DNA from: Isoetes taiwanensis
Taxonomy: Eukaryota > Streptophyta > Lycopodiopsida > Isoetales > Isoetaceae
NCBI GenBank assembly: GCA_021234155.1
Contig: JAJEKV010000165.1
Coordinates: 684,001 to 748,000 of the forward strand
Reading direction: 5' to 3'
Length of the DNA stretch: 64,000 bases
Part shown: positions 1,741 to 26,728 of the stretch, piece by piece
Layout: every line of letters starts with the position of its first letter
How positions within the stretch are numbered: the first letter of the stretch is position 1
Translations under genes and position numbers: made by a program
The notes under the pieces: generated by a model
Told to the model about the DNA's origin: nothing
Databases searched by the model: none
What the model saw: the letters and a program-made list of their open reading frames with translations, nothing else

Positions 1741-2224
1741 CCCCCAGCCACTTTACATTGCATTTGTGAGATTTGACGCCCAACAGTTCAGAGTGCAATT
1801 CTGGGCGGTCTCGAACTCGAGAAATATAGTTGCTAGAACTAGTACGTCATACTAGACCAAACTAGTGTGACATAGAAAGGTATGAAAAGACATGATGTAG
1901 AAGGCTATAAAAGGCCCCATGCTTCATTGTGTATGGAGACGTTTTTGAATAAAGTCGTATTTAATTAAAGTGGGACTCATTCCATTCCCACTTTTTTTCG
2001 GAACCCTGTTATTTTCTACAAAAAGGAGCACCCTGACCCGAAATCTGTCCTTAATTCGAATTTTTGTCTATTAGTGTGCATCCAAGCTTTCTTCCAGTTT
2101 TCTCGGATAGCGAGTCGAGAACAAGAACAATGCAACTCAAACAAAGGAAATTCATTAAAGATTGAAACCAAAGTTCTAGTTGAAAAAGAATTTTTATTAA
2201 TAAATTGAATAGGTACAATGTATT
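1741..2224. other. Spacer with a 25-bp motif shared in inverted orientation with 16.75 kb
   Basis: No gene seen. Positions 1952-1976 (core GTCGTATTTAATTAAAGTGG) are exactly reverse-complementary to 16753-16777. Both are followed by GGGACTC-type words, suggesting ends of one repeat family. Confidence 0.5.
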
Positions 2225-2733
2225 TTACATCGGATGCAGAGACCATGGCGGTCTTGCTGTCACTACAGTTACGTCATCGTGGTAGGTGGTCCACCTTAGG
2301 GGATTAACTTGCGGCACTTCTTCATGCCGTCTGTAAGCCTTGGGGGCAACCTGAAGAGTGTGGAATGCCTCATGAGGAGGTGCCTCCGGAGCCACCGGCT
2401 GACCTGTCCACCCGACTTCTCCACTATCCTCCCGCAGCTTTTCATCGAATATGCTCCTTCCCCAAACTCCGTGGATGTTATGCAATGCTTGCAAGATGCT
2501 TTGAGCTTTCTTGACTGTCTCAAATTTCTTCGCGTCTTCTTTATCCCGAGTGTGTGCATGGCGTCTGCATTCACGAGCAACCTTATCCCAAAGGCCGGGC
2601 AATAGTGTAGCGTGAGCGGGATCTGTGCCAGAACGGTATCTCTGCCGCCTTAAGCGGGATCTGTGCCGCCTGGAGCGGTCTTTGTGATGCCTGAACGGGA
2701 TCTGTGCTGGTGCGGGATCTGTGTCTGAACCAC
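2225..2733 (-). pseudogene. Terminal exon of the decayed 2.2-9.9 kb minus-strand gene
   Basis: The open frame starts after a clear acceptor (CCTTGCTCCAG at 2734 and rightwards, read on minus) and runs about 170 residues to a stop at 2225. It opens with an Arg-rich low-complexity part built on repeats of RSRLRRQRYRSGTDP type. A more ordinary segment follows, with LWDKVARECRRHAHTRDKED and ILQALHNIHGVWG. I do not recognise a domain. Position, strand and splice site suggest it follows the FCP1-like exon after an intron holding three palindrome repeats. The Arg-rich part arises from a short GGGATCTGTGCC-like DNA repeat, so it may be slippage rather than selected protein. An unrelated gene is possible. 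Confidence 0.5.
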
Positions 2734-3209
2734 CTGGAGCAAGGAGAGTATGATTAACAATTACGGTATCATTAATCAAAACGAAGAAAAGAATGGTGAA
2801 TTCAAAATACAATGGAGAACATTTATTCCATATAACTGCATCTATTCACGTGGCAAGTAGTGTCTTTCTCGACTCGCGAGTCGAGAAAGGCCCGGAAAAG
2901 TCAAAATACAACCATTCTCATTAGAATATGGTTGCATCCAATCACACACGGAAGCATACAAATGGTTTCGTCAACGAGACAAGCAGTGCCTTTCTCGACT
3001 CGCGAGTCGAGAAAGCCCCAGGAAACCCAATGTACAACCATTATCATTATAGATTATGGCTGCATCCAGTCACAAAAACAAACATACAAATGGTTTCATC
3101 AACAGAACAAGCATGCCTTTCTCGACTCGCGAGTCGAGAAAGCGAGCGAAAACTCAATGTACAAGTATATTCATTACAAAATATAATACATTTCTTCACG
3201 TTTCTTTAC
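2734..3209. repeat. Intron with three tandem units of about 126 bp, each carrying the CTCGACTCGCGAGTCGAG palindrome
   Basis: Perfect 24-bp palindromes lie at 2865-2888, 2991-3014 and 3118-3141, spaced 126-127 bp. The DNA between them is also repeated (ATGGTTGCATCCA, ACAAATGGTTTCRTCAAC). The block sits exactly between a donor (GTAAAG, complement of 3204-3209) and an acceptor (CCAG at 2734-2737) of the minus-strand gene. Confidence 0.85.
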
Positions 3210-4092
3210 AAGATTCACACAATTCGACTATCTGAAAGCAGAGGTCACTCTTCTTGTTCACCAAAATATCGTCCATAGCTTTCATGATCGCGCTGCTCTC
3301 TGGATCGACCTCCTTGAGGTGCGGATAGTTCCTAATGACATCGGCCACAAGTATGGCAAACAGGGATTCCGCCAAGACAGGAACGAGCTTGAAAGACAAC
3401 CACCTATCCATTTCATACTCTTCTGGTCGATAACTCTTGGCAATGATTGCATTGTGCGAGTTATGATAGCACTTGTAGGCGGAGTCGTCTATGATCAAAG
3501 TGTTGTGTTTGTTAAAGTCCTGGTATGCCTCATAAACCATGTCCAGCCTTTTCACCATAATAGGCTTCCCCTTAGTGATGGCTGGATCGAGGTTTGACAC
3601 ATGCTTGACCCTTTCGTTTCCCCAAACAAACTTGAACATTAAAACAGAAAGGCCGAGAACACCAAGGACATTGATAATATTTTTCTTTGCCATACAAGAC
3701 CATATGGCCACTTGGAATCCCCGTTCCACACACCACTCGATAATATCCTTTGCTCTAGGTCGAAGATACACGACTTTAGACCCCACTTTTGTCGGCACCT
3801 GCGAGGTATTAATCTAAGGGACGTCTTTATCGTGGTATACTGCAGCTAATACTCCATTGACGTCAAATATAAGGTGGGCCCCGCTGGATCCCAGTTAGAG
3901 TTTGGCTCTGACCAGATTTCTGATTGATCGGGATCCATATGCGGGATCATTATTTTTTCAGGTCCTTTCTTGCTGCCCGCACTGTCTTGCTCTTGACTGG
4001 CTTTCTTGGATCCAGTATCCTCCACGTGATGTGAACTGCCAGCAGATTCATGTGATATTGACAATGATCCCGATTCGTTGCGGTCGATGTGC
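3210..4092 (-). pseudogene. FCP1/NLI-interacting-factor-like phosphatase domain exon, decayed
   Basis: After an acceptor (TTTCATCATTCCAG) the frame gives a Ser/Lys-rich linker (SISHESAGSSHHVEDTGSKK), then an FCP1-type HAD domain. Motif I reads LIFDVNGVLA, so the second Asp of the family's DxDx(T/V) is Asn. Next come RPRAKDIIEWC and QVAIWSCM in the motif II region and LIIDDSAYKC, the acidic DD motif. This family dephosphorylates proteins such as the RNA polymerase II tail. The Asn change argues against normal catalysis, although I recall plant paralogues with a similar DxNG motif. The frame is broken by a shift near 3885 and a TAG at 3814-3816. The domain call is firm; the fusion to upstream exons is inferred from strand, splice sites and spacing. 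Confidence 0.7.
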
Positions 4093-4222
4093 CTGGAATG
4101 ATGAAAGACGTCAGATAGGAAACGTTTTCTCGACTCATGAGTCGAGAAAAGAAAAAGCTAAAGACTCGGAGGATTTCTCGACTCGCGAGTCGAGAAACAC
4201 TCCGAGAGCAAAGTGAACTCAC
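4093..4222. repeat. 130-nt intron carrying two palindromes
   Basis: The donor (GAG then GTGAGT, read on minus from 4222) and acceptor (CATTCCAG ending at 4093) are both canonical. The intron is largely made of two palindromes: 4125-4150 with a CATG centre and 4174-4197 with a CGCG centre. Confidence 0.75.
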
Positions 4223-5282
4223 CTCAATCTCAGACTCTCAAGTATTAGTTCGGCAGCGTTGTCGTCTAAACCTTGGACATTGTCGTCTCCGTCACCTTTC
4301 TCTCCTTGGCTGTCAGGTTTGTCTTCGTCATCATCGTCCTTAGTGCTTCCATTTGTCTTCCTCGCTTTGAAATGCTCATGAAACAGGTCCAGGTATGACC
4401 GAATGGTTTCAACCATGTCCTTATTTCCAACCACGGAAATAGGTTTCATTCCATACTGCATAGCCCCCTGAGAGAACAGGCCATTCATGTACCACTCACA
4501 TACAATATGATCTTCCTCGACCAAGCTGGTTATGAAGTACTTGATAACTCTTGGCCGGATAGGAATTCTATGTATTGGACATGTCGCACCATCAATGCTA
4601 ACTTTGTCCATCGATGGCACATCCTCCATAAATCTGCCGTCCTTCCAGGGTTCCATCTGCTCTTGAGAAATCATGAACTTGTCGAGATAGTGGTGTTCGC
4701 TAGACCACTACTTGTCCAGGTCTGCAGCCGATCTTGAAACCAAAACCAAAACTACATTGGCAAAACTTGGTGCCTTCGGCAGGCCAAGTCTACACTCATG
4801 TTCCAGTTCGTATATGGAATACAAGATCTTGTTGGTGAAGTTAATATCAGCTGCCCATTGTGACACAACAGTTGTCTGATTGCCCGACATGCAAAAGATA
4901 AGGAAACTGAAAGTATCCAGCTCGGTCATGTCCAGACATGTCTTGTACCACTGCTCAATGTCAAGTTTTTCATAAAACGGGGTGGGGTCTTCGATCACAT
5001 TGATGGCAAATAGTGCCACGGGCCCAGGTGCCAGTTCCAGACCACCAAACGCCTTGTGTCCCAAGGTTACCAGGAATGGAGGGGAGCTATCATCCATCTT
5101 AAATGGGACCACCCCGAATCCAAGCTTCCTCTTCAGAATTGCCATAGCTCGTTCAGGGAAGGGGAGGGTTTTGACGTTACGCTTTAGCTTGGTGTTGATG
5201 TAGGGTTGACATAGGCGGTTCAACTCCTTCATGTCTTCCTCATCAAGCGCAGCCTTCTCCTTATCATGGAATAATTTAAGGG
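4223..5282 (-). pseudogene. Long internal exon of the decayed minus-strand gene, unknown function
   Basis: Starting after an acceptor (TAAGTTTAG), one frame stays open for about 350 codons apart from a single TAG at 4708-4710. It reads LKLFHDKEKAALDEEDMKEL and then a globular-looking part (LGFGVVPFKMDDSSPPFLVT, GPVALFAINVIEDPTPFYEK). After the TAG come WSSEHHYLDKFMIS and a C-terminal acidic tract (KDDDDEDKPDSQGEKGDGDD). The exon ends LILESLRL at a GTGAGT donor. I recognise no family. One stop in an otherwise long frame suggests recent loss of function or C-to-T decay of a CAG codon. Confidence 0.6.
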
Positions 5283-5867
5283 CTAAACTTAGCTATTTGG
5301 CGATTTTTTAGCACATTTTCAAAAATCATTGGCTAAAGTAAATGGAAAAAATTGGGAAAAAAATAATAATTTTAGCTTAACTTTTTCCGGGACTGCACCA
5401 ACCCTGGAGCTCTTTAGCCAAATGCTAGAAAGTACGAGCGTGAAATTTTGTAGTGTTTAGCTAAACCATAGAAACTTTTAGAATGAATTTCGGGCTAGTT
5501 TAGCTAACATCATTCTAGTTTATATGAAATATATGACTAGTAGTTTAGTTTCTAGCATTATGAATTAATTTGAGTCCTAGACTTTACTACTTAACATTAT
5601 AAAATGTTTTCACAAAGAAAATGACTAAAATAAGTGGAATATATTGAAAAAAAGTATAGCAATTTGGTTTAATATTTAGAAATTTTTGGAATGATGTTTG
5701 GGTTAGTTTAGCTAAACGCTAGAAAGTATGAGAGGAAAAATGTATAGAGTTTAGCTAAGCCACAGAAACTTTTGGGATTAATATCGAGCAAGTTTAGCTA
5801 AAGTCATTCTGGCTAATAAGAAATATGCGATTAGTAATTTATTCCCTGCTCCTTATAATAATCAAAA
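5283..5867. repeat. AT-rich intron with a duplicated TTTAGCTAA-type repeat
   Basis: Two related blocks (about 5395-5550 and 5690-5835) share GCTAGAAAGTAYGAG, TTTAGCTAARCCAYAGAAAC and TTTAGCTAA-rich ends. They look like a duplicated MITE-like insertion inside an intron. The donor near 5868-5910 is not clear. Confidence 0.55.
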
Positions 5868-6207
5868 TCATGGCATGCATTGGAGGCAACATTGCAGACC
5901 TTCTTCCAATGCACGGCGTCTCTTTAGGATTGTGGCGTAATCCTTTGCGGCCTGCAATTTTGAACTTCTACTTTTCCTTAGCAGGATTGTTCCATCCAGG
6001 ATTCTGCCCTGTAGATCAAGCATTTCCTTGTCCATCAGGCCCTGTATCCTTTTCATGAATTGCTTGTCGAACAACTTTGGGTCCGGCCTGCACGGCAATT
6101 CTCCATTGCTGTCCTTCAGCTTGCCTCTTGTCCATTAAGCCCATATCTCAGTCCATTTCTCCCAGACCGTCTCAGTGCTAAGAATGAGGTCATACTGGTC
6201 TGAGTCC
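5868..6207 (-). pseudogene. 3' part of an exon split by a hAT element
   Basis: The minus frame reads DQYDLILSTETVWEKWTEIW, a TAA near 6137, then WTRGKLKDSNGELPCRPDPK and LFDKQFMKRIQGLMDKEMLD, ending in a Lys/Arg-rich helix (LQAAKDYATILKRRRALEE). Taken across the insertion it continues in frame from the acidic-basic segment at 7474-7683, which confirms the two pieces were one exon. I do not recognise the fold; the spacing suggests a helical, possibly DNA-binding region. Confidence 0.6.
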
Positions 6208-7473
6208 CATAGTTACCCGGAACGGGAACTTTTTGGGAACTTTGACCCAAAATCTGGAACGGGAACGGGAACGGATGGGAACGACCAACATTCAAATTTT
6301 TCAATTTTGAAAATGGATTTGAAGTTCCCTTTGCTTAAAGAACATCTTAGAACACTTAGAATTAAAAAATGTTTCAAGGGGAGAGAGTTGCAAGCCTAAA
6401 CATGTATAGCTACTCTGTAACAATAACATTAGAACTTTTAAACAACATTTTCCCATTTAGAACGTATTTTTTTAAGTTAATATATTGTTATTTATCAAAA
6501 CATCATAAAGAACATAAGTCACACAGTATAATAAGTTCTCGTACTTTCGAATCTTCTATTTTCATGGCCTTCATCAACCTGCAAAGCAGAATCAAGACAT
6601 GTTTTAAATCACATAATAGATAGAAAGTAGGAAACAGTACATATGTGAAATGAAAAAGGATTATTACCTTCATTTTGTTCCCCCAAACCCTCAACCTCTT
6701 CATCTACTAAATCTTCTGCATTTTCATGACTTGTGTCTTCTCCATTTTCATCCCCATCTTCTTCCACTATAGGTGGAATACTTTCTTCTCGGTGCATTTC
6801 CTATCCACCATTGTAGCACCTCCATTGGGTGAGTTCATCACGAATTGTCAAAAGTTGCAGTAGTTTGCACATTCGAGCTTTGTGTGATAAATAAGCTACA
6901 ACGCAAGTTAATGATCTTCTGGAATAGCAGACAATGCAAGTAAAAATACCTTCTTACTTGCATAAGTGTCGGCACTGGCAGAAGATAGAAGATAGCTTCT
7001 GTGCAAGATGAATGCAGCAAATAAAAACAGGCTGATCGATTAACAAAGAGATATGAAATGCAAATGCAAACCTTCGATTGATGAGAGTCGGCAACAAGGC
7101 AGCAAGGCAGAAGGCAGAGGAGTCGGCACTGCAGAAAGCTTCGATTCGATTCCTTTGACGGCACAGCAGACTGGCACAGAGGTTTTCTTGGGCGCAGGGG
7201 TTTTGTCTTTGACGGACAGCAGACTGGCAGAGGCGGGAAGAACAGCCACAACGTAGAAAAAAAGAAATTTCGTTCTTGACTTTCTTGAAACCATTGAAAA
7301 AAAAAAATTCTTTACCGGGAACTTGGTTCCCAGATAATGGGAACTAGTTTTGGAACTTAGTTCCCGGTAACAGGCCATATGGGAACATCCCCAAGAGTTC
7401 CCGGAACGTCTGACCCTCGGGAACTAGTTCCGGAACGGGAACGAAGTTCCGAACTTTGTTCCCGGTAACTATG
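6208..7473. mobile_element. Non-autonomous hAT-type DNA transposon, 1,266 bp
   Basis: Terminal inverted repeats begin CATAGTTACCCGGAAC on the left and end GTTCCCGGTAACTATG on the right. Both sides are flanked by the 8-bp direct repeat CTGAGTCC (6200-6207 and 7474-7481), which is diagnostic for hAT elements. The outer 100-150 bp at each end are packed with GGAACGGGAAC and GTTCCCGG motifs, like subterminal transposase binding sites. Only short open frames are inside, including an acidic minus-strand piece near 6609-6797 (VEEDGDENGEDTSHENAEDL). No hATC dimerisation domain can be read. Removing it restores an open exon of the host gene. Confidence 0.9.
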
Positions 7474-7683
7474 CTGAGTCCCTGCCCTTTCTTGGTGTTC
7501 TCTTCTTCTTCTCATCTTCATCCTCTCCCTCATCATCTTCCTGACCTTCCAGAAGAACATATCTGCAAAGTTTCTCGAAGGTCTTCCACTTATCGGAGGG
7601 GCCCCTGTTTCCTTTAGGACATTGAGGACAACCCAATGCTTTCCACTGTTGCCGAGCATGTATGATCTGGTCAGGAGTACGGG
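7474..7683 (-). pseudogene. 5' part of the hAT-split exon
   Basis: After the acceptor CTGAATGCAG the frame reads ARTPDQIIHARQQWKALGCP, then QCPKGNRGPSDKWKTFEKLC, and an acidic then basic tail (EGQEDDEGEDEDEKKKRTPR). The frame then runs into the hAT element. CPQC with a later Cys could bind metal, but no family is recognised. Cleanly open apart from the insertion. Confidence 0.6.
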
Positions 7684-8646
7684 CTGCATTCAGTAAATGT
7701 CACAATGTCAGATCATGAAAGTATCTCCTAACACCCAAAGGAATATAATAAATAAAAGGATGCAGGAAGTTTTCTCGACTCGCGAGTCGAGAATAACCAC
7801 AGGAGAGGAGAAAACATAGGAGAGTCAAGGCCAGAGCGAAAGCATCACGCATTCCCAAATCTTTGCTTTCACGCCTCTTCGAACGATGCAACTTAGGATA
7901 TTAACTAAGTGACATTGCCCGAAGAGGGGGGAAAGAAAGATTGGGAAGGCTCGATGCTTTCACTCTTCAACCATTAATCTCTAATGTTTTCTCTATTTCG
8001 CTAGAGTTTCTCGACTCGCAAGTCAGGAAAGTCAGAGGAGCACAGGAGAGGAGAAGATCGAAGGGACTTTCGACTCTCACGAAGTCGAGAATACCTTTGT
8101 GAGGAGAGAGAACATAGGAGAATGAAGGCCAGAGTGAAAGCACCGCTCATTCCCAAATCCTTGCTTGCCCGCCTCTTCGAACGATGCAACTTAGGATGTA
8201 AACTAAGCGACATTGCCCGAAGAGGCGAGGGAAGAAAGGATGGGAAGGCTCCATGCTTTCACCCATCAACCATTAATCTCTAATGTTCTCTCTGTTGCCC
8301 TAGGGTATCTCGACTTGCGAGTCGAGAAAGTCAGAGGAGCGGAGGGAAGTCGAAGTATGAAGGGACTTTCTCGACCCGCGAGTCGAGAAAGCCCCTTCAC
8401 ACTGTTCTTCCCATTTATTCTCTGGCTTTCTCGACTCGCGAGTCGAGAAAGTCCCTTCAATCTTGACTTTTCTTTACTTCTCTGGAGTTTCTCGACTCGC
8501 GAGTCGAAAAAGCCCCCGCAACCTCTGCTTTCCTGTGTTCCTCTAGCTACGAGTCGAGATACCCCAGAGAAACACAGAAAGCAGAGGTTGCGGGGCTTTC
8601 ACTCAGCGAGTCGCGAAACCCCCGAATCGAGATTCAAATTCATTAC
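7684..8646. repeat. 963-nt intron made of palindromes and foldback DNA
   Basis: Palindromes or close variants sit at 7772-7793, 8007-8030, 8064-8091, 8306-8329, 8367-8390, 8427-8450 and 8488-8511. The last four are spaced 60-61 bp. Two copies of a unit of about 200 bp (7802-8007 and 8103-8305) are each a long imperfect foldback, with arms meeting around CCTCTTCG and CGAAGAGG. A separate tight hairpin lies at 8514-8595. The intron is bounded by a donor (AAG then GTAATG, from 8646) and the acceptor TGAATGCAG. Confidence 0.8.
8514..8595. repeat. Perfect-looking hairpin with 28-30 bp arms
   Basis: The left arm CCCGCAACCTCTGCTTTC and right arm GAAAGCAGAGGTTGCGGG pair over about 28-30 bp with roughly two mismatches or bulges. 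They enclose a loop of about 22 nt that contains half a palindrome (CGAGTCGAG). Its size resembles a plant pre-miRNA foldback, but nothing shows it is processed. Confidence 0.75.
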
Positions 8647-9769
8647 CTTATGTAGCCGGGCACTTGCCGCTATTGTGTTCTCGGCAAAGGGCTAATGCCG
8701 GGCGAAGCTCGCTGGTGGCGCTCTCCGCCGGAACTCTACACTCGCTTAGAATATCCGCTTTTGATCCTCTGCGGCACTTCCTTTTCTGTCTGCAATACTT
8801 GCGCTGCCCTCACTGAATGCTGGCCGTCCACAACCCAAAACCTGACGTCTTTTCCCTTCAGGTCTTCCTTAGACTTCCAGCTGAACAACTCACCGGTTGA
8901 CCTGTTGAATGGTATGACATCCGCGGGCATTGGATCTGCAACAGGATGCCGCACCATCAAGTTCATAATCTCCAAAGATGTGTGCTGGATTAAATTCCCC
9001 GCGGGTTGAACAAGACGGCATCTCCTCGCAAAACCTTGAGGCGTTTGATGTCCAAAGGTGTGATATCCCCAATGGATAATATCGAGCCAACCGCCCCATC
9101 TTAAAGGCCCCTCTCTCGTGATTTCCTAATCCGCTCATCCGATCCAAGAATTGGGAGTCGACCATATCTTCCTCATCTTCAAAGATCTCAATCCTCCAAA
9201 GTGTAGTCTCATCCGCTTCATCTGCGGCCTTGTCCGGAGTTTTTTCTTTGTGAACTACAACATCCATGGTAACTGCCGAGTGCTTTAGAGTCTTTAGCAC
9301 GCTGGACGTAAAGCTCCCGGTATTGAACAGCTTCTCCCTCCCCTTGAAAATCTCCATTCCAAGCTCCCGGGATGTCAGGGTTCCGGCCTCCTTCATCCCT
9401 TATAGATCCTTCCACCCAAGGTTCTGACAATTTAAAGGCGTCGGCCTTTTGTCGGTCCCCTTCGACTTGTTCATTGAAGAGTGAGAGTAATTAGATACTG
9501 ACAACTTCTTCGTGTGGTAAAACTTACCCTTCAGGCAGTCTTCCACATACAATGTAATGTGCTTCGAATCTGGCGCAGAGACGGAGAGCACAACATCGAC
9601 CTTTTTGTACTTGTCGCCGGAGCTCTTCTTATCCCTTGCCACAGAAACAGATCCTTCTCCTTCCCACTTGTTGATACTTTGACATACCACCAAGAATCTG
9701 CTGGTGTATCAAGCAGCTCTGTCTCCAATCCCTCGATAACGAAGAACGGAGTTCGGCCAGCAGTGAATG
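8647..9769 (-). pseudogene. Large exon with a ParB-like DGQH segment, frameshifted
   Basis: The exon follows acceptor GTCTTGCAG. It opens AFTAGRTPFFVIEGLETELL, shifts frame near 9690, and continues as KKVDVVLSVSAPDSKHITLY through a TAG at 9400-9402 into LWRIEIFEDEEDMVDSQFLD. Next, in shifted frames, come VGSILSIGDITPLDIKRLKV with LRGDAVLFNP, then IPFNRSTGELFSWKSKEDLK and FWVVDGQHSVRAAQVLQTEK. The DGQH-x-x-x-AA motif after a short basic segment recalls ParB/sulfiredoxin-fold proteins, but this is only a resemblance. At least two frameshifts and three TAG codons (two near 8730 and 8685) mark it as decayed. Confidence 0.5.
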
Positions 9770-9831
9770 CTGCAAGACAGAAGGATGGATCAGTAAAGGT
9801 ATCCTGACCGAACACAAAACTGAGAGCTCAC
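9770..9831 (-). other. 62-nt GT-AG intron
   Basis: The donor CAG then GTGAGC and the acceptor GTCTTGCAG bound a 62-nt intron between the first exon and the large exon. The first intron of the divergent gene at 10247-10308 has the same length. Confidence 0.65.
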
Positions 9832-9931
9832 CTGGAGTTACTGTCTTTCTTTTCTTGGTCCCGCTTGAACCAGCTTCTGCTCCGGCGCCTCGCTTCTTCG
9901 ATGGAGTCGCCATATCTGTATGCCCCCGCAT
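9832..9931 (-). pseudogene. First exon, N-terminal nuclear-localisation-like segment
   Basis: An ATG at 9931 or, more likely, 9913 gives MATPSKKRGAGAEAGSSGTK followed by KRKTVTPG up to the donor. The KKR and KKRK clusters look like a nuclear localisation signal. This fits a nuclear protein with an FCP1-like domain further on. Confidence 0.5.
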
Positions 9932-10230
9932 CTTCTTGCTGCTCGGATTCCCTTGTAAATTGAGCCTCTTCCGTGCCTTGGAAGGTTTAGGACTGCACGT
10001 AAAAAAAGGTCGGGCGTGTTCTTAAATTTGAAATTAAGGACACACAATGATTCAAGGAAAAAAAGCGGGCTAAGGGTACAGGACGGCCAGCTTTAGCCTG
10101 CCCAAACACGAATTTCAAATTCATTCACTTCCAGGGACTTAGTGAGCGCAGTGGAGATTTCTGGGCGCTTAGTTCGGTAGCATAGCGCACAGCGACCGGA
10201 GGCGGAGATCGATTGCTCGCGAGTTCACGG
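9932..10230. promoter_or_regulatory. Divergent intergenic region, possible bidirectional promoter
   Basis: This 299-bp gap separates the first ATG of the minus gene from that of the plus gene at 10231. No clear TATA box stands out. It is more GC-rich than the surrounding transposons on the 10231 side. Assignment rests on geometry only. Confidence 0.35.
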
Positions 10231-10589
10231 ATGGCGCCACGACGCTGTAAGCTCCTAATAGCGCCTTACTCTGTGTCTATTTCTAACTGCGTGTCTTTTT
10301 GCAAATAGTTGATTTGATCGATGTGCACGTGGCTAAGGTAGCAAGCGGATATGAGCTGCAAGACACGGAAACACTACACTGCAGCGCCATGGAAGAGGGA
10401 TACGCGAGAATCGCTTTGATACAAGTATTTGATGGGGATGCATTGTTGATGAGGCCAACAGAAGAAGCGAAGACTCTCGGTGAGGCTGCGGGATCTGTGA
10501 TACAATGGTCCAAGGAGTTCTTGCAAGAACACATGAGTTTCAGAGATTCATGTTTCATTATGTGTGTAGAACATGCCAGATGTGTATAG
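10231..10589 (+). CDS. Short protein with DUF8039-like domain (two exons)
   Basis: Exon 1 (10231-10246) starts ATGGCGCCACGACGC. A 62-nt GT-AG intron (10247-10308, CTAAC branch-like word, acceptor GCAAATAG) leads in frame to exon 2, ending in TAG at 10587-10589. The product is about 100 residues. Exon 2 reads VHVAKVASGYELQDTETLHC, MEEGYARIALIQVFDGDALL and EEAKTLGEAAGSVIQWSKEF. This matches the pattern I know for DUF8039, a small domain in plant CACTA-type transposon proteins. It is much shorter than such proteins, so it is a fragment or a truncated relic. A second frame continues to 10747 and may be the original continuation after a frameshift. Confidence 0.55.
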
Positions 10590-10878
10590 AACAGGGAACT
10601 GCTCGTAAGCTCGGCGAATTTATTGTTTCCTTGTCCAGCATATTTCAGCGTCGAGAGATGAAATATACTCTCTGGGTTGAGAGATGCTGGGCACAATGGA
10701 TCGGAGTAACACGCGAACAGCTCCCTGTTTTGATCATTGAACTGTAGAGATGCCCAGCAAGGGAACTATAAATCGGAGCAACTCGCGAACAGTTTCATTT
10801 GTCTGTATTTTTGCTTGGAATGCCTTCCATTCTGTTTAGAAGCATCGGTCCGAGTATCTGTTAGGCATGCTAGTTCTG
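10590..10878. other. Spacer downstream of the DUF8039-like gene
   Basis: A frame open to 10747 (FQRREMKYTLWVERCWAQWI) overlaps the stop and may be out-of-frame remains of the same gene. The rest shows a short repeat (ACTCGCGAACAG at about 10710 and 10783). Nothing else is seen. Confidence 0.3.
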
Positions 10879-11965
10879 TTATGATAATGCTAGGTCTAGG
10901 GCCTTTTTGATGTAGTTCAAATGCATCCCCCTGTGGTTAGTCCCAGATGCCTCCACCCAGTCCGGGCCACTCCCCGTCGCAATATTCGAGGACGATGGTT
11001 CGAAGGAGAGTGGCTCAGATGGGATAGAGGCACCTAGGACTAAACCTAGGACTAGAGGAGTCGAGAATCCCAGTGTTGGCTTGATGCCTGCATTCTCGAC
11101 TCGCAAGTCGAGAATCCCAGTGTTGGCTTGATGCCTGCATCCTCGACTCGCAAGTCGAGAATGCCTTAGCCAGCGAAAACTCCAGGTAGTACTCCTGGAG
11201 TGCTGGCTGGTTAAGGCATTCTCGACTCGCGAGCCGAGAATGCAGACAACAAGCCAACCTATGGCATTATCGAATCTTCAGTAGAAAATAAAGTTGGGTG
11301 GCTGAGGCCTTAAGGATGCATTTCCCTGTGGTTAGTTGCAGAGGCCTCCACCCAGTCCGAGCCCCTCCTCTTTGCAATATTCGAGGAAGATGGTTCGAAG
11401 GAGAGTGGCTCTGACTGGGTCGAGGAACCTACGACCAGACACAAGATGCAATACTCGAGGAAGATAATTTGAAGGAGAGTGACTAAGACTGTCTGCAGGC
11501 GCCTGTGACAGGACATAGAAGAATGCCCTGGGATTCTCGACTAGCGGGTCTTCTCGACTCACGAGTCGAGAAGACAGCCAGCACGTCTCTGGTTCATCGT
11601 AGAGGCCTCCACCCAGTCGGAGCCAGTCCCCTTCGCAATATTCAACGAAGATGGTTCGAAGAGGAGTGGCATGGACTGGGTGGAGGCACCTGCGACCGGA
11701 CACAGAGCCATTGGCGAGTCGAGAATGCACAAAAGGCATTGGCTGGCTCTCGAGGACTAGAAGGACCTTGGGTAGATGTCTGCGTTCTCGACTCACGATT
11801 CGAGATTGCCTCAACCAGCCAACAATCCAGGGGGTACACTCCCTGTTCTCGCCTCGCGAGACGAGAGATTCTCGACTCGCGAGTCGAGAAGAAGGCTTGT
11901 ACTTCCTGGATTGTTGGCAAGTTGAGGCATTCTCGACTCGCGAGTCGAGAAAGCCGAGTGCAGTC
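10879..11965. repeat. Intergenic palindrome and foldback array
   Basis: At least eight palindrome variants occur (for example near 11094, 11142, 11218, 11552, 11795, 11870 and 11930). Between them lie long foldbacks. Three related ones of about 95-105 bp (10929-11031, 11336-11435, 11584-11690) have arms CCTCCACCCAGTC and GACTGGGTGGAGG around a TTCGCAATATTC centre. Others fold at 11155-11228 (GAATGCCTTA with TAAGGCATTC) and 11811-11927 (CCAACAATCCAGG with CCTGGATTGTTGG). Long open frames across it, such as 11332-12216 minus, are by-products of the repeats. Confidence 0.85.
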
Positions 11966-13240
11966 TGCACCTTTCCTGCAAGGGTTTGAGGGGTGCACTC
12001 AGTAAAAACCGTAGAAAACATGTGAGTGTATGGGATGGGGTTTTTTTGGGGCCAAAACTGTACCCTTATATGGAAGGGAGTATTTTTCTTGCTTGAATTC
12101 TGTATATTTATAAGAGAAATATGGTAGGGGTATATAAAATATGAGGTATAAAATATGAGGTAGGAAATTTTCGTATAAGGGATAATTTCTCTTAACCCTA
12201 TGCACGCACATGCCATATAGACTTTACATTAGGTGCACCCCCCGGGTGCAAGGGAGGATATTCTGTGAGTTAGAAAGATTTGCATTTGCTGTAAAGCAAA
12301 TCCTGTTCTTAGATCATAGTTAAAAACATTCATTCATAGTTAAGTTCTGTTATGAAACAGTCATAGAAAGTTTTGCAATTTCTGTTGTGAATCATTCATA
12401 GTAATGTTCTGTTACTGCTCTGTGGATTTTTTCTTCCTATCACCTGTCTCTGAGGATTCCTAGTTCAGTTGCTTGCCACTAGTCTTAGCACTAGTCTTAC
12501 TTATGCCTGTACAAGGTTTTCAATAAAACAAAAACTAAGAAGAAGAAAACAAACACAGAAAACAAAACAAAAGCAAAACAGAAAACAGTGAAAACATGTG
12601 AAATAGAGTGAAACAGTGGAGACAAAAGAGAACATATTAATAAACCAAACCTGGTAGATTTGCTGGATGCAGAGGAAGCTCCCGTGTTTGATTCCATGTT
12701 TGAACAGGCGTTTGCAAAGAGGGAATAGGGATTTGTCGGGCTGGAAATTGAAACAGGGGATAGTAAGAACCTCTGATAAAAGAATATAAGTAAGAGTGCA
12801 ATAAAACTAAAAAGGACTTAGAGAAAACTAAAAAGAAGCAATAAAAAAAGCTATAAACTTACAGAGAAGGACCTCACTTTCTTCTCAGGCAGTAACGCCC
12901 GCTCGAACACTCAAACTGTGAAAAAACCTCGGCGCTAGATGCGTCCTGATCCGTCGACCAGGCTGTTGTCATAAGAAGCCGTCCGAATTGAGAGATTGGA
13001 AGGATCGCCAAGGGCGGAGCTCCAGAGACGGAATGGAAAAACAGAACAGAGAAAGAATGAATGGATGAATGGGTCGCGGGGGAAGAGGAAGAGGGTGCAG
13101 TTATTTTGGGCTGCACCCTCGAACCTCGATAAAGTGCCATTATGACACCCTCTCACGTGTGGGCCATGCGGTCCGTGACATGGGTGTCCGGATTACTGAC
13201 GTGGCAATGTCAGCGGTGGCTGACGAGGCACCACGTGGGC
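11966..13240. other. Gene-poor spacer with two G-box words
   Basis: Small minus-strand frames (12497-12697 and 12874-13140) are rich in Phe and Ser and show no domain. CACGTG words occur near 13154 and 13231, just before the low-complexity tract. They could be G-boxes for the gene at 13.7 kb, but no transcript evidence is available. Confidence 0.3.
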
Positions 13241-13640
13241 CATATTTTTAATGGTTATAATGTTTATAATGGTTAATAGATTTAATGGTTAATGGTTTTA
13301 ATGTTTTTAATGGTTAATGGTTCTAATGGTTCTAATATGGTTCTAATAATGGTTAATGGTTTTAATGTTTTTAATGGTTAATGGTTCTAATGGTTCTAAC
13401 ATGGTTCTAATAATGGTTAATGGTTTTAATGGTTAATGGTTCGAATGGTTAATGGTTATAATGGTTACATGGTTATATGGTTATAGTGTTTTAATGTTTT
13501 TGCTGGTTATATGGTTTTAATGTTTTTGGTTTAATGGTTTAATGAATCTATGTGGTTTAATGGTTTAATTGTCTTAAATGGTTGTATATGGTTTAATGGT
13601 TTAAATGGTTGTATATGTGGATTTAATGGTTTAAATGGTT
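13241..13640. repeat. Low-complexity TAATGGTT tract
   Basis: About 400 bp consist almost only of TAATGG, TTTAATG and GGTTATA words. It is a degenerate microsatellite directly upstream of the DUF7869-type gene. Confidence 0.9.
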
Positions 13641-13685
13641 GTATATGTTTTTAATGTGTGCTCTTTCATTCAGGGAGCATGTGAG

Positions 13686-16580
13686 ATGAGCAAAATGGAG
13701 CCAAGGAAGTCCAGCACAGGACATTGCCCTAGGCTCCAATTGAGGAAGATGGCATGCTTGTTGTTGCACCCTTGCAACGAGATAGTATTTGTAGAGGGCA
13801 TCATAACTGCAGTTGATCCTTTTGATAGTGTCAATGATGAAAGGCTGGGAGATGATCATCTTGGAGTTGGCATTGTGAAGCTTCTTATCCAAGTTGATAC
13901 AATCATGTTCCAGGGAAGCTCTAGTGATTGCATTGTGTGCTCTGGGTTGTTGGAGTCCCAAACTCAGTTGAGATGGCCAATTAGATATATTACACACAAG
14001 AATGGTGATAGTTTGGAATGCCCTACTGAACTACATACCCCAAGGCCCACCCCAGGCCATGTGGAAGATTTGGTGGTCGATGAGCATCCTTTGGTCACAA
14101 GGAAGGCACTATGTTTTTCATAAAAGGAAGCCAAGGGTGCCCAAGAGGCCTAGAAGTGACAGGATGGAAAGTATGGCCCCAACCAAAGAAAACCTAGAGG
14201 CAATTAGGGGACAAGAGTGTTGCAACCTAGATTGCACAGTGCAGTACAGTGTGGATGACCTCGTGCAGATAAGGTCCCAATACATTGGACAGCTTCATAA
14301 AGATAGGATTAATTTCATCTACTCCTTGTGTAGGAATTCCAGCTATGATGAAAACACAGGAAGGCTATTATATCAATTGAGGGGCCTGAAGGTATGTATG
14401 AGAGCATTGAGATGGATTCTTGGGGTGAGCAAGTCTTCATTCTACAGATACTGGGAGCAGGTTAGAAAAGGACACAGTTTGTTCCAACATGGCAATGCAC
14501 TCACTTTGAAACCTAGAGCAAATATACTCTCAAGGCCATTGCAGTCTTCGAGAGCTTTGTGAGATACATGTCTCAATCTATGCCCCACAAGTCGAAGGTG
14601 AACGAGCACGGTGTGCGAGTGGTGCAAAGGGTGTTGCCACAACACTATACCCAAAAGGAGTGCCTTAAAGAGGTCAACTCCATCCTAGAAACTATTGGAG
14701 GTAGGCCTCTTTCTCAATCACATTTCAACAAGTTATGGAGCACTCACTTCTCAGACGTGAGTGTCCTGCAACACATGCCATTCTCAAAGTGCAACACTTG
14801 CATTCAACTCAAGGATACACTTGCATCAACTGCAATAGAGAAAGAAAGAATGGCAATTAGGGAGCAATTTGCAGATCACCAAAGGGACCAAATATCATGT
14901 AGACAGTTGTATTGGCAGTGGAGAACATTTTCTCAGATGCAGCTTGACAGATTTGTGTGTATAATTCATGATAAGATGGACCAACACAAGACTTTCTTGC
15001 CAAAGCTAGATCCTTTACCCAAGCGTTGTCAAAACGCTTTTTAGATGAAAGTAAGTCTAGCGGGTGTCTTAACATATGGTCATGGAACTGGAACCTATGG
15101 TCATTTTGTGCTTGATCTATGGAGGGATGATCCAAACTTCCATGTGAACTCTATTTTCAAGTGCTTGAGAACACTAGAGAAAGGATCGATAGAAGGGAGG
15201 AGGTATTCCCCATCAGCACCCATTTTTGAGGCTTTGATGGATGATCAACCGCTTTGTTACCAAAGGCAGATAAAAAAGCTCATATCCAAGGTGTCTAGTG
15301 AATCAAGGAGGACTTGGGATGATTTCCCCTTACTTGAGAAACAACTGCCAGAGGAGCTATGCGTTCAATTGGACAACTGTTGGAAAGAAAACAAGAATAG
15401 ATGGATGTTTGGGGCAATGTCATACTTGACAGTAGTGGGAGTATTCAAAGTTGTGAAAGTGGGATTCATGATGGTTGGGCATACACATGATGATATAGGT
15501 GCATTCTTTGGAACTTTCTCCACCAAGCTCAAGAGAGAAAACGTGACTAGTCTCCCTGAACTAATGGATGTGTTTGAGAGCTGCATTGACCCCAACCCAA
15601 TGGCTTTCTTGATGGATGAGGTTGCAGATTGGAAATCATTTGTCGAGGGATACTTGCTAGATGGTAAGGATCAGTTGACAGGACACACAAAGCCACTTCA
15701 GTTCAAGGTTTGGGTTAGGGATGGAATATCAATCATGCAATATAAGTGGAGACCAGGTGACAAGTTGTGGATGCCTGTACAAGGCATCGAGTTGTGGCAA
15801 CGGGGTGCTGCTGGTGAAATTCTCATTCCTAAAGGGCAGCCAAAACCACTACCTCCCTTCAAGACTGTCAAAGACTCTAGCCAACTAGTGAAGGGGATCA
15901 AGGATTATATAACGCACTGGGATGATGTTCGGAATGGAAAGCACACCTCCACTCTTAAGAAAAATCAAATGGACTCCCTAATCAAGTACTGGGAGAAAGT
16001 TGTGACATGCTTAGAAACTGAACAACCATGTGGGAGGGAGCTGAGAGACGGGTTCTTGCAAGAGTCAAGATGGGAGGGTTCTCAAGGAGCAAGCACGTCT
16101 AAGAATGTTCACTTGGGTCCTAATAAGGGTTCCAAGTGGTTTGTGGGAAGTAAGGCCTCAAAGCTGAAGTGGTTTGATCTTCCTGAGTGGGATCCCTTTG
16201 AGGACATCAAGGAAGGATACTTTGTGCTAGTAAGGCCTGATGATGAGGATTGTCCAATATGGTTAGGGGTGGCACTCTCTGATGTAACCACCACTATGGC
16301 TGATGGAGAGGAGTTGCGTCCTGGATTCCAAATTCAATATTGGGAGCCCATTGGAAGACACAAGAAGGGCAACTTGAAGGAGCAATAATACACCGACTGC
16401 TGGGAGAAGAAGTGGAGGGCAAATCATGCTGATCCTCAAAGGAGGGAATTGGTGGAGTGTGTGGTATGGTCATATCCAAGTTCTCACATTGCAAAGGACA
16501 ACACACACAAGATCCCAAAAAGGGAGATGGACAAAGCCATGAGCAACCTCCATGCTTTGTCATTGTATGAGGGTAGATAA
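13686..16580 (+). pseudogene. DUF8039/DUF7869-type transposon protein, decayed
   Basis: An ATG at 13686 opens a segment resembling DUF8039 (IVFVEGIITAVDPFDSV and SQTQLRWPIRYI). After a frameshift near 14100 it reads CCNLDCTVQYSVDDLVQIRS and GVSKSSFYRYWEQVRKGHSL. After another shift near 14555 it gives LWSTHFSDVSVLQHMPFSKC with NTCIQLK and CIIHDKMDQHKTFLPKL. The C-terminal half is a typical DUF7869 domain: GHGTGTYGHFVLDLWRDDPN, LCVQLDNCWKENKNRW and VGHTHDDIGAFFGTFSTKLK. The conserved Asp and His residues suggest an RNase H-like transposase core; that role is inferred. In-frame stops are TAG at 15042-15044 and TAA at about 16386. Coding resemblance continues to a TAA near 16580 (DCWEKKWRANHADPQRRELV). 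Confidence 0.75.
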
Positions 16581-17870
16581 TATTGAGAAACTTAAAAACT
16601 TTCCCAACTAGTGGTTTGTAAAATTTATGAGGAAAACAAGTAACCCAATTCTTTGTGTGTGATGTGTAATTCTATTCAAGCAATCAATTCAGAAATTTTT
16701 TTTTCTGGGGTATGAGTCCCATTTTCAGTCCGAGTCCCAAAATTCGAGATTTGTCCCACTTTAATTAAATACGACTTAATAATGCCTTCTGTATATAACT
16801 CTTTTTGTAATGTGTGAATGTCTTTTGCTTTTATATGCTTCAATCAAATTTTAAAGTGAAGCATTTGAATGTTAATATGACTTAAAGAATGAAAGGCTTA
16901 TTTAGAGCAGTGATGCATGCCAGCCAGCATTCTGTCATTTTGATAAATGATTCAAGAACTGCCCGTGTGATGGCATTTATCTGTGTTGGTCATTCTTTAT
17001 AGCCTCAGCTGCTTCTAAATCAATAAATTCCATCTTTCCAAAGAATTCACTTGAATCTTGGATCTCTTCAAATTTCATTTGTCTGCGCTCCGTCTCTACT
17101 ACATCAAGCAGGCTGATAGGAACCTTACTACTAATGATATTCTTTGCTCTAATTATTTTCAAGTCAAGAGAATCAGATGTATCAGTTGTTTCTTTACTAC
17201 TACAGGGGTAGTGAAGCTACTTCTTACTTGTAGATTTACTCATATGTTTTTGTGCCGCTTATAATGAACTGAACAAGAATATTAATAATTTTGTTGTTTT
17301 CAAACTTGTTTTTGTTGTGTGGAAGCATGGAACCTAAAACTCTATAAGTTTATGTAACCATTGCATCGCCAAACCTATCTAAAAGTAATACTTTTACTTT
17401 TTTTTGGGATAATTCAACCAAATGCTTACTTGCAATTCTGTTAAAAAAAACTTAAGAAGAAGTATCCTATTGTGCACAAAAGTGCATGTTTTTCTACTTA
17501 GAGAGGCCTTGCAAAAGGCCGCTCTAAGAATAAAGCAAAGATGAAATAGTTAATTTTGCTTTTGAAATGAGAATACCTTTGGGCTGCTGGTAAAAAACAG
17601 AGGATGCTATCACCATTTTCTTGAGCTTATCACAAGCTTCTTTACTCTTTGAGATTGTTATTACTTGAAAACATGAATGTGATCTATTGAAATAGATCAC
17701 CTCCTGCATCTAGTAGGTCGATTAAGTGAATCTTGATTGATCCGCCACATTTCATCACAAAGGTGGGTGGACTAGATCTCCTCTATAAATGTCCCTGTTG
17801 ATGGATTTTCCCCAAAATCCCCAGCAAGTGACCTCAAAATGCAAGAATCAAGATCTCCTTAATGCTGTAA
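16581..17870. other. AT-rich spacer without a supported gene
   Basis: It contains the inverted partner of the 1.95-kb motif at 16753-16777, preceded by GAGTCCCATTTTCAGTCCGA, and several poly-T runs. Small frames at 16977-17264 and 17524-17709 have no recognisable features. Confidence 0.4.
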
Positions 17871-17875: not shown

Positions 17876-18358
17876 TGTTGGAATTACATGCCTAAGTGGT
17901 GGCCTTTTGACCCAAATGACACATGGTTAGCGTTTACATATAGGTTTTGCATGGAGCAAAAATAAAAAGGGAAAAGCGGACCAAAATTATATGGTGAAGA
18001 GAACAGAAGTTTTTTTTAACAGGAACACAACCGACGTCATCGTTTGTGAGCCGGATTTGTTGAACTGGCATCTGTTGCCGAAACAGGCCTTGGAGCTTCC
18101 ATATGTTGCCGGATTTGATATTGGAGCAGGGTGGAACAGGTGATTATCTGTGATATGATGTTTTCTGTAGTAGAAGGCAGTCTGTTTATCAGTTTTGTGT
18201 GATACTGTAATTTAGTCCTGTGTGGAATTCTCTGTGGGTTTCGATTTGCTTTAAGCAGGTACATCCTTTGTGGATTTTGAAGAGGTGCTAAGGGAGAAGA
18301 TTGAGTTTGGAATTTCTTCTGGGTTCAATTCCTGGGCTCAAAGCGTTTGATTCCAACA
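17876..18358 (+). repeat. Copia 5' LTR
   Basis: It runs from TGTTGGAATTACATGCC to GTTTGATTCCAACA. Compared with the 3' LTR it has an extra stretch of about 36 bp around 18009-18045 (poly-T then AACAGGAACACAACC). Confidence 0.97.
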
Positions 18359-18360
18359 AG

Positions 18361-18372
18361 TGGTATCAGAGC
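18361..18372 (+). other. Primer-binding site for initiator tRNA-Met
   Basis: TGGTATCAGAGC lies two bases after the 5' LTR. It is the complement of the plant initiator tRNA-Met 3' end and the standard Copia primer site. Confidence 0.95.
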
Positions 18373-18391
18373 TTTTGAGTCTAAACGGGAG

Positions 18392-19290
18392 ATGGCATCT
18401 AATAAGGTCGCTGCCTCTATTTTAGCTGACGTTAAGGTGTATAAAGGAGGCTCTGGTTTTCAGGCATGGAAGATGAAAGTTGAGAAGGCTTTGGAAGCAG
18501 AGGGGCTGTGGGATTTGGTCTGTCCTGTCACAGAAACTGAGAAGCAAATGCGGGTAACTATGAAGAATGAAGCTGCAGAATCGTCAAAGCTGGAGGTATC
18601 TGCGGAATCAGCAAAGGCTGCAAAGGATGCTGCAAAAGATTTAGCCCAAGCAAAAGGTATTATCATTTCAAAGCTTGGTTATGGTATTATAGCGTCAATT
18701 CATAGTATGGATCCACGAGATATGTGGCAGTATTTGTTAAATGAATATGAACAGTTAACTGCATCTCAGAGACATAAACTGGAACAAGAATTAAGAATGT
18801 TGAAATATGAAAGTGGTCAAGATCTGGTTGAGTTATTTGATAAAAAGGATGGAATATTTATGGATTTAGAAGGTGCTGCGCCTCTTTCTGTCCAATAAAA
18901 AATTCTTTATATCTTAGATGTATTTGCTGCATATGATGAAAATATTGCATCTTTAATTCGCACGATGGCTAGAACTAAAGAAGAAGCTATAAGTATTGCA
19001 AGGACTGAAATTACGCAAAGAGAAGCAAGAAGAAATTATGATCAAGGGGGAGATAATATATTGTATTTTGGAAGAGGAAGGGGCAGAAGTAAGGATGTAA
19101 TGTGTTATGGTTGTGGAGAAACTGGACACATTAAGCCAAACTGCACTAGAATCAGAGGCCGTTCATGCTATGCTTGCGGAGGAGCTGGTCATCTAGCCAA
19201 TATGTGTACAAAAAGGGAAAGAGGACGTGGAAACTTTAGGGGATCTTCTAGTAGAGGTGCGTCCAGAAGTGTTACCTTTTCAAAGCTGAC
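18392..19290 (+). pseudogene. Copia Gag with two zinc knuckles
   Basis: An ATG at 18392 begins MASNKVAASILADVKVYKGG. A retrotransposon Gag core follows (FQAWKMKVEKALEAEGLWDL and YLLNEYEQLTASQRHKLEQE), reaching a TAA at 18896-18898. The same frame continues KILYILDVFAAYDENIASLI into two CCHC knuckles, CYGCGETGHIKPNC and CYACGGAGHLANMC, then an Arg/Gly-rich linker. Gag packages the element RNA into particles; the knuckles bind nucleic acid. Plant Copia Gags usually have one knuckle, so two are slightly unusual. The single in-frame stop separates most of Gag from the knuckles. Confidence 0.85.
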
Positions 19291-19720
19291 TATAGGTTCT
19301 GTATCAGAAGAAATTCCTGAGGAGGAGGTAAAGTCATATGCTTTGTCAAATTTATGTGATGAAAATATTTCTAACCCTGTGGTTATAGATTCTGGAGCTG
19401 AAAAATCCGTGATGCAAAGTTCACAAATTTTAAGAAAGCTTGAAACTAGTAAGCTCAGATGTGTGCATATGGCTAATGGAGAAAAGCAAAATGTAGAAGC
19501 TTGTGGTGTGTTAGAGCTCATAGGAGAAGATGGAAAAATTATTACCATTAATAATGTATTGTGTGTAGCAGATTTAGTTGATAAAAATTATAAAGTCTTG
19601 TTTGACAAGCATATGTGTATAGTTCATGATAATGGAAAAATAGTATTGTATGCAAAAAGAATTGGAAATCGTTTTGAGCTTTGTCCTAGAAGTATAAATA
19701 TTTTATCAAGTGAAGTTGGA
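19291..19720 (+). pseudogene. Copia aspartic protease region
   Basis: The catalytic motif VVIDSGAEKSVM (DSG triad) is followed by hydrophobic strands typical of retropepsins (GVLELIGEDGKIITINNVLC). It would process the Gag-Pol polyprotein. This part has no internal stop. Confidence 0.85.
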
Positions 19721-20629
19721 AAGGAAAACTCAATGGAATTGTGGCATCAAAGATTAGGCCACACGAACTTGAAAAATATAATTTTTATGAAAAGGCACAA
19801 GTTACTGGACGGTTTGGACTTTATAGATAATAGTGAGGGAAGCGCTTTGTGTCATGGATGTATGTTGGGCAAACAAAGTAGAAAGCCTTTTCCTATGAAG
19901 AGTGAACGGGTAAATGAAAAATTAGCCCTAGTGCATTCGGATGTATGTGGACCTATGAGAGTTAGAAGTGTTAGTGGAAAATACTATTTTGTGTCATTTA
20001 TTGATGACTATACAAGAAAAGCTAAGTGGTACTTCTTAACTCATAAAAGTCAGGTGCTCAACTCATTTAAAGCCTATCTTGCAGAAGTCGAACGTGAAAC
20101 AGGTGCTAAATTAAAATGTTTAAGATCAGATAGAGGGGGAGAGTACTTATCAAATGAATTTAAAAGGTTTTGTTTAGAAACATGAATCAAAAGGCAGTTG
20201 ACTTGCAGAGGTACTCCTCAGCAGAATGGTGTCTCTGAAAGAAAGAATTGAACGGTAATGGAAGCATCTCGGGCTATGTTAAAGCATGCAGGTCTTCCAA
20301 ATTTCTTATGGGCAGAAGCTGTAAATACCACCGCGTTCTATATTCAAAATAAGATCTCAAGCACATCCCTGAATGGTCAGATCCCAGATGAGTTATGGAC
20401 CGGCAAGCGTCAATCGGTAAAAGACTTTAAAGCTTTTGGTTGTTTGGCATATTCAAAGGTAATAGATGATAAGATATCAAAATTGGATGATAGAAGTAAG
20501 GAAACATATGTTGTTGGATACGATAAAGAATCAAAAGGGTATAGGCTCTATGATCCAAACAAAAAGACAGTGATTATAAGTCGAGATGTCATTTTCTTTG
20601 AAAATATATTATACAAAGATCGGTTTTTA
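19721..20629 (+). pseudogene. Copia integrase, two in-frame TGA stops
   Basis: The zinc-binding HHCC region reads ELWHQRLGHTNLKNI and CHGCMLGKQSRKPFP. The catalytic core shows LVHSDVCGPM and LRSDRGGEYLSNEFKRF, containing the first two acidic residues of the DDE triad. A TGA at 20183-20185 interrupts. The core continues TPQQNGVSERKN to a second TGA at 20249-20251 where Arg would be expected (CGA to TGA), then AMLKHAGLPNFLWAEAVNTT. The C-terminal part is cut by the LINE at 20630. Confidence 0.9.
20614..20629. other. Left copy of the LINE target-site duplication
   Basis: CAAAGATCGGTTTTTA here is repeated exactly at 27236-27251 on the other side of the LINE. Confidence 0.95.
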
Positions 20630-20844
20630 TTTTTTTTTTATTGAAGTCGGTATATGTATATTAAAGTATAAATATGGAGAGTACAGAGAAAAAACTTTTT
20701 ACAGGGAAGTTTAACCCGATAATAGAAAGGAGGGCAAGGATCCCTCCTGATTAAAAGTCAAAAAATATTATAAAAAATAGATAGATTAAGTCTTTAAATA
20801 GTACTGGGTGTGATATCTTGTTCCAACAGATAAGAATTCTCCAC

Positions 20845-21168
20845 TTAGAAACCCGATCTGAGGTTAAGATTAGTAGTTTTCCTTCCTCTTCCCTTGACCT
20901 CTGTGCTGAGGGTGCAGAACATACATATACAAGACCCTGCCTTCGCCAGATTATATCTCCCCTTAGCATCCTTGGCTTTGCAGATCAAAGCCCGTCTGAT
21001 ATTATAGTTTTGGTCGCAGCAGCAGTTGCACATACAGGGTTCTTCATGCCCGAGTGTATTGGGTGAGCCGAATAGCCTGGTCCACTCCCTGTTTGCCTCC
21101 AGATTGATTTTCTTCCACTTAATTCTCCTCATCGGCACGAACATTATTCCTGCAATTAAAAGGGCCAT
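20845..21168 (-). CDS. LINE ORF3, small eight-cysteine protein
   Basis: A 107-residue ORF whose ATG overlaps the stop of ORF2 in TAATG. It has a hydrophobic N-terminus (MALLIAGIMFVPMRRIKWKK), then cysteines spaced C-x-C-x-C-x-C-x11-C-x16-C-x-C-x2-C, with AKDAKGRYN between. The same spacing occurs downstream of ORF2 in the other LINE at 51.1-51.56 kb, so the ORF is conserved in the family. The cysteines suggest metal binding. I know no named domain with this pattern, and its role in retrotransposition is unknown. Confidence 0.75.
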   Translation of the reverse strand: MALLIAGIMFVPMRRIKWKKINLEANREWTRLFGSPNTLGHEEPCMCNCCCDQNYNIRRALICKAKDAKGRYNLAKAGSCICMFCTLSTEVKGRGRKTTNLNLRSGF

Positions 21169-26025: not shown

Positions 26026-26150
26026 CTCGACCTCTGCAGGGTTGAAGAATCTGTTGCTGTCCCTGATGCAACATTCCTTGAGTCCCCCTTTTTTTAAAGT
26101 TGATAGGTTTCGAGTGAAGTGGAAATTTGTTCCAAGAAAGAAGTGTTGCT

Positions 26151-26720: not shown

Positions 26721-26728
26721 TTCTTCTG

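Follow-up and report, generated by a model that had tools for sequence, protein, structure and literature searches.

A palindrome amplified inside a family of large terminal-inverted-repeat DNA transposons of Isoetes taiwanensis and its likeness to protein-binding motif arrays

Transposons of the En/Spm (CACTA) group carry subterminal repeats that are bound by TNPA, and they have terminal inverted repeats (TIRs) starting with CACTA or CACTG and a 3-bp target site duplication (TSD). The REP/BIME sequences of bacteria and the GC clusters of mitochondria are short palindromes, clustered and in many cases near-identical. The targets of VANC lie in introns, intergenic regions and terminal non-coding regions, in tandem repeats that undergo gain and loss (PMC5735166). 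Here we analyse a window of 64,000 nucleotides of the lycophyte Isoetes taiwanensis (GCA_021234155.1, contig JAJEKV010000165.1, positions 684,001 to 748,000, forward strand), in which the copies of a palindrome, CTCGACTCGCGAGTCGAG, are all contained in a single DNA transposon. In every locus that we sampled from the genome, such palindromes were internal modules of one family of large TIR DNA transposons.

Twenty copies of CTCGACTCGCGAGTCGAG (up to 3 mismatches) were present in the window, all within 2102-11949, and none appeared in 100 dinucleotide shuffles; this agrees with the initial annotation of the window, which had reported about 20 copies in 9 kb. Ten of the 13 perfect palindromes of at least 16 bp belonged to the CTCGACTCGCGAGTCGAG family, nine of them measuring 22-26 bp and the remaining one (8492-8507) 16 bp. 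The perfect 22-26 bp palindromes described before were thus recovered, as was the copy with a symmetrical CATG centre at 4125-4150, which is perfect over 26 bp. What had been missed is that the whole block holding the palindromes is one transposon (1952-16777), organized as follows.

1952-16777, plus strand: complete copy of a TIR DNA transposon, 14,826 bp including two later insertions, with perfect 25-bp TIRs, flanking AATA and dispersed relatives
1952-1976, plus strand: left TIR, 0 differences from the right end
16753-16777, minus strand: right TIR, 25 bp, perfect
1948-1951, no strand: left TSD, AATA, 4 bp
16778-16781, no strand: right TSD, AATA, 4 bp
2102-2119, no strand: degenerate subterminal palindrome, 3 mismatches, about 150 bp from the left end
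2864-3142, no strand: 126-bp tandem repeat containing three perfect palindromes of 26 bp
4125-4197, no strand: two palindromes, one with the CATG centre
7772-8508, no strand: six palindromes (up to 3 mismatches) located in 298-bp and 60-bp tandem repeats
11095-11951, no strand: eight palindromes in the interval separating two divergent genes, some of them within a 47-bp tandem repeat

An inverted repeat was detected at 1949-1976 / 16780-16753, the exact TIR measuring 25 bp. The family is characterized by the 25-bp TIR AAGTCGTATTTAATTAAAGTGGGAC and a 4-bp TSD, and comprises coding forms of about 12 kb and forms of about 4 kb; 17 complete elements were compared, seven of 11.7-14.8 kb (coding) and ten of 3.5-4.6 kb. 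An exact 4-bp TSD flanked 16 of the 17, in one case inside an uninformative A run, and the duplication of the 17th agreed at 3 of 4 positions. With its TIRs and a TSD of fixed length, the block 1952-16777 is a class II DNA transposon. Like En/Spm, it holds repeated short sites in both orientations; unlike En/Spm, its TIR starts with AAGTC, its TSD has 4 bp and the arrays of the coding copies lie far from the right end. Membership of the CACTA group was rejected on the TIR, which begins AAGTCG, and on the length of the TSD. A literature search gave no matching transposon among the matches listed.

The palindrome was then sought in the entire assembly (1,658,258,908 bases, 1,110 contigs), for which the genome paper gives 1,658.30 Mb in 204 scaffolds and 909 unplaced contigs and names Illumina reads and nanopore reads (v9.4.1 flow cell, Guppy 3.1) as the sources (PMC8566536). 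The search with up to 3 mismatches that the initial annotation had proposed, carried out with a 20-mer, returned 12,735 places vs 28 for a reversed control, and exact 18-mers numbered 3,851 vs 0. The earlier remark that the palindromes occur nowhere else is therefore true of the window and not of the genome. TIR ends (up to 2 mismatches) were found 1,661 times in forward and 1,709 times in reverse orientation (3,370 in total; control 0) and, among the first 100 places listed, many pairs were spaced by some 12 kb or some 4 kb. Spread over roughly 1,700 end pairs, 12,735 palindromes would give 7-8 per element. From the listed matches we picked 20 palindrome loci, which come from contigs C1-C76 and are a sample rather than a census, and 20 further stretches, picked for listed exact ends, were fetched to complete or add elements. 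When the palindrome was masked and the locus's own element excluded, other members of the family still covered part of every one of the 20 palindrome loci (367-8,851 bp), as compared with none of eight window segments taken outside the element.

We considered the possibility that the palindrome is mobile in its own right, as a very small element, similar to REP sequences or GC clusters, that inserts into transposons and introns; this would account for an identical core in several different contexts. Of 300 site-by-element comparisons, 196 were unalignable and uninformative. The other 104 showed the palindrome filled in 100 cases, partial in 2 and absent in 2, both absences concerning a single site of element C33, where the alignment resembles a deletion at the palindrome. 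Since 100 of the 104 alignable sites were filled, the copies are inherited with the element, and none of the 20 fetched loci lay outside the transposon family. We consider an independently mobile palindrome improbable. Like REP/BIME and GC clusters, the palindromes are short, near-identical, clustered and outside coding sequence; unlike them, they are carried by a plant DNA transposon, and signs of independent insertion were not found in the 104 alignable comparisons. Target duplications flanking single palindromes were also discarded as a candidate, the direct similarity of the flanks resembling tandem duplication instead. The spreading mechanism evoked initially can thus be kept for the transposon, which spreads, but not, as far as sampled, for the palindrome itself.

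Compared with the window copy, the other six coding elements had an identity of 95-97% at the right end and of 88-93% at the left, falling to 42-85%, with many gaps, at 7.7-8.6 kb and 10.7-13.4 kb; these two most restructured stretches contain 14 of the 20 palindromes of the window. The ends are common to coding and 4-kb elements, over 168-246 bp on the left side in seven elements that were checked, and the palindrome at 2102-2119 falls within this terminal stretch. The 4-kb elements have no gene sequence in common with the coding ones, their longest listed open reading frame (ORF) having 200 amino acids. Interiors of coding and 4-kb elements matched in 49 of 70 element pairs when unmasked vs 8 of 70 with the palindromes masked, and these eight matches measured just 24-40 bp. 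A copy within 2 edits of a 24-mer was found in 16 of the 17 elements, the 17th having one with 4 edits. The array on the left side of the 4-kb elements is found about 0.5-1.3 kb inward from that end; on the right side, nine of the ten elements have weaker copies (3-6 edits) at a distance of about 0.54-0.7 kb from the terminus. A subtype of the palindrome with a fixed asymmetric centre CACT (CTCGACTCACTAGTCGAG) was noticed in three loci (L003 at 2623, L005 at 5710, L017 at 402); in L003, a right-type transposon end (at 2101) is 522 bp away from it.

Tandem arrays with a period of at least 35 bp, some of them overlapping, were collected from the 17 elements and 14 loci, and 35 of 79 held a palindrome within 5 edits. 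Direct homology between the flanks of a copy reached a score of 14 or more in 28 of 198 copies vs 2.2 in permuted data. When the spacers of nine units chosen by eye were compared, one of the 36 pairs was above chance. Such units would be expected of a passive satellite, in which an ancestral palindrome provokes local tandem duplication through replication slippage or break repair, copies pile up unopposed in non-coding DNA and the transposon spreads them. The flank homology and the tandem units fit this explanation, as do cores that evolve like their flanks and the one site deleted at the palindrome in one element. Yet the core recurs with different spacers, and in elements alike in little but their ends, for which local duplication alone is not readily enough. 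We regard a passive satellite as plausible, at somewhat less than an even chance.

The preserved symmetry of the copies had been put forward as suggesting, among other causes, selection, possibly on an RNA hairpin whose base pairing would serve splicing, small RNAs or RNA stability. Arm pairing was analysed in 198 unique copies by comparison with permuted arms. It exceeded the permuted level at position 1 (z 3.5) and at positions 12-14 (z 4.6-6.6), and was near that level at positions 2-11, with a slight excess at 5, 9 and 11 (z 1.9-2.2). Beyond position 14, differences were scattered in both directions (z -3.4 to 3.6) and ungapped pairing showed no consistent excess. Positions 12-14 consist of a few symmetric subtypes, 40 of 198 copies being symmetric there vs 14.5 expected. 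The idea of longer symmetric arms was dropped, as a gapped inverted flank score of 14 or more occurred in 2 of 198 copies vs 3.0 in permuted data.

Changes were also counted genome-wide. At the centre, one-arm singles numbered 533 and 535 (1,068) and symmetric doubles 140; at the outer positions, the singles numbered 168 and 182 (350) and the symmetric doubles 11. The one type of asymmetric double tested was found in 18 + 18 places, and the unchanged sequence in 3,851. Relative to independence, this corresponds to ratios of 0.74 for the asymmetric double, 1.38 for the outer symmetric and 1.89 for the centre symmetric double; compared with what the asymmetric double predicts, symmetric doubles were in excess by factors of 2.5 (centre) and 1.9 (outer). 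The check for compensatory changes gave a divided answer: symmetric doubles are somewhat over-represented and positions 12-14 co-vary, as base pairing would have it, but symmetry is far oftener broken than kept, and selection for its preservation is not what these counts indicate. Common descent of subtypes can explain both the excess of symmetric doubles and the covariation. Against an RNA hairpin there are, besides the preponderance of singles, the lack of a consistent excess past position 14 and the arrays of the 4-kb elements, which lack the gene sequence of the coding ones. We judge it the least probable of the explanations examined.

The nature of the mismatches was informative as well. 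Among 193 core mismatches in 152 copies, 89 were C>T or G>A at the four CpGs (the methyl-CpG type), 41 were different changes at CpG positions and 63 lay outside CpGs. Two CpG-type changes suffice to convert CGCG to CATG, the changed but still symmetrical centre that had been taken as a possible sign of selection. Some of the variation between palindromes may be nanopore error at methylated CpGs.

The coding capacity of the window element, and its two later insertions, are listed below.

3196-3813, minus strand: gene 1 segment with an NLI-interacting-factor-like phosphatase domain (PF03031, E 4.6e-9)
4219-5262, minus strand: conserved coding segment of gene 1, family not named (third-position share 0.46 and 0.52)
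8736-9911, minus strand: upstream, fast-evolving segment of gene 1 (65-89% identity to the window copy)
15045-16388, plus strand: DUF7869 (PF25273) ORF, 447 amino acids (E 2.1e-40, third-position share 0.44)
5263-5849, no strand: later insertion of about 590 bp, not in related copies
6205-7475, no strand: later insertion with approximate limits, not in related copies

The minus-strand segments of gene 1 span 2.2-9.9 kb. Third-position excess favours coding for 4219-5262, 9400-9708 and the DUF7869 ORF; it is weak elsewhere, with a share of 0.37 for 3196-3813 and mixed support (0.37-0.48) for 8736-9911. Palindromes were absent from the segments of the window element with coding support, and the copies at 2868-3138, 4129-4194 and 7774-8508 lie between ORFs having Pfam support or third-position excess. 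The initial annotation had assigned these copies to introns of a gene; their non-coding placement stands, insofar as they lie outside ORFs with Pfam or codon support. The DUF7869 ORF, which is 90-98% identical to the window copy in the six other coding elements, is probably the transposase, judging from its sequence. Its frame contains short conserved motifs (HDKMDQ, LDNCWKENK, GHTHDDID) that look transposase-like by eye, and frame breaks and odd residues repeat at the same spots in several of the seven elements. This recurrence points to nanopore errors of a systematic kind, perhaps located at methylated motifs. A single-sequence fold of the ORF was unusable (pLDDT 39.6). No match was obtained in a PDB search of two ORFs, including this one, no relative of it in a viral collection and no mention of DUF7869 in the literature search; in NCBIfam, one ORF had weak phosphatase-type matches, all below cut-off. 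One motif of gene 1 gave the impression of being ParB-like, which was abandoned since no tool backed it. The insertion at 6205-7475 looks like a hAT-type element; by eye, it is bounded by CATAGTTACC...GGTAACTATG and flanked by a repeat of 8 bp, CTGAGTCC.

The best interpretation of a symmetric core that is common to otherwise dissimilar interiors, and amplified in non-coding DNA as part of different tandem units, is a site bound by a protein. By analogy with the targets of VANC or TNPA, we propose with moderate confidence that the palindrome array is a binding motif for a protein. The 22-bp core with two-fold symmetry would be the site of a dimeric DNA-binding protein, encoded by the element or by the host, that would act on the element's own chromatin or expression. 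Arrays would grow because more sites bind more protein, and single copies would then decay, largely through CpG mutation. As in the VANDAL/VANC system of Arabidopsis, a short motif occurs in the non-coding DNA of a DNA transposon, in tandem arrays, with gain and loss among related copies (PMC5735166, PMC10398659). The motifs lie in non-coding parts here too, and they form fast-changing tandem repeats, the copies at 2.86-3.14 kb being an exception to the fast change. What sets the present case apart from VANDAL elements is a motif of 22 bp that is palindromic and contains four CpGs, in an element that has clear 25-bp TIRs, a 4-bp TSD and two genes, one DUF7869 and one phosphatase-like. In the literature search the 16-bp core string was not found, and the matches listed concerned organelle subjects and no nuclear palindrome family.

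Several observations weigh against a protein-binding array. Orthologous cores were 85.7% identical ungapped (83.3% counting gaps) vs 87.3% for the flanks in 85 comparisons, which were restricted to flanks at least 75% identical and near-perfect reference cores and carry some bias from both. As cores are no better conserved than flanks, no selection is seen on single sites, and a passive satellite remains a strong rival because no constraint was detected there; palindromes could simply provoke tandem duplication. The three palindromes at 2.86-3.14 kb are surrounded by well-conserved sequence (82-96%), so palindromes are not always tied to fast change. In the coding elements, the last 4.3 kb or so before the right end contained no match within 6 edits; matches with 7 edits occurred at distances from that end of about 1.95 kb, in all seven elements, and 55 bp, in five of them, a threshold that gave 12 matches in 127,513 shuffled bases. 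Two-ended subterminal transposase sites were rejected on this ground, the right side of the coding elements being devoid of arrays. In the frame of the window copy's DUF7869 ORF, every one of the seven coding copies was interrupted by one or more stops or gapped codons, some of which are possibly nanopore errors. Finally, no match naming VANC was obtained when 20 ORFs of four copies were scanned against Pfam, with genes not fully rebuilt and the presence of a VANC model in Pfam unchecked; we therefore claim likeness to that system, not membership. A further, rather unlikely, option is a lycophyte transposon family from an undescribed group with 4-bp TSDs that has palindromic operator arrays of its own. 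Its dimeric protein (perhaps from gene 1, whose 5' part is fast-evolving) would counter CpG methylation by the host, in an anti-silencing system of separate origin from VANC, and parasitic 4-kb elements would keep nothing but the ends and the operators.

Elsewhere in the window, inspection by eye pointed to other elements. ORFs at 18305-28926, whose text includes a zinc knuckle and looks integrase-like and reverse-transcriptase-like, resemble a retrotransposon of the Copia type, LINE-like ORFs lie inside that stretch on the minus strand at 21168-26163, and a second LINE-like element is found on the plus strand at 47597-51202.

More than 12,000 palindromes of the Isoetes taiwanensis genome would be accounted for as parts of one transposon family. 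Two classes of element in one genome, with common ends and little but a single palindromic motif in common inside, offer a natural test of motif amplification in the non-coding DNA of transposons. If the motif recruits an anti-silencing protein, such systems would be extended from flowering plants to lycophytes.

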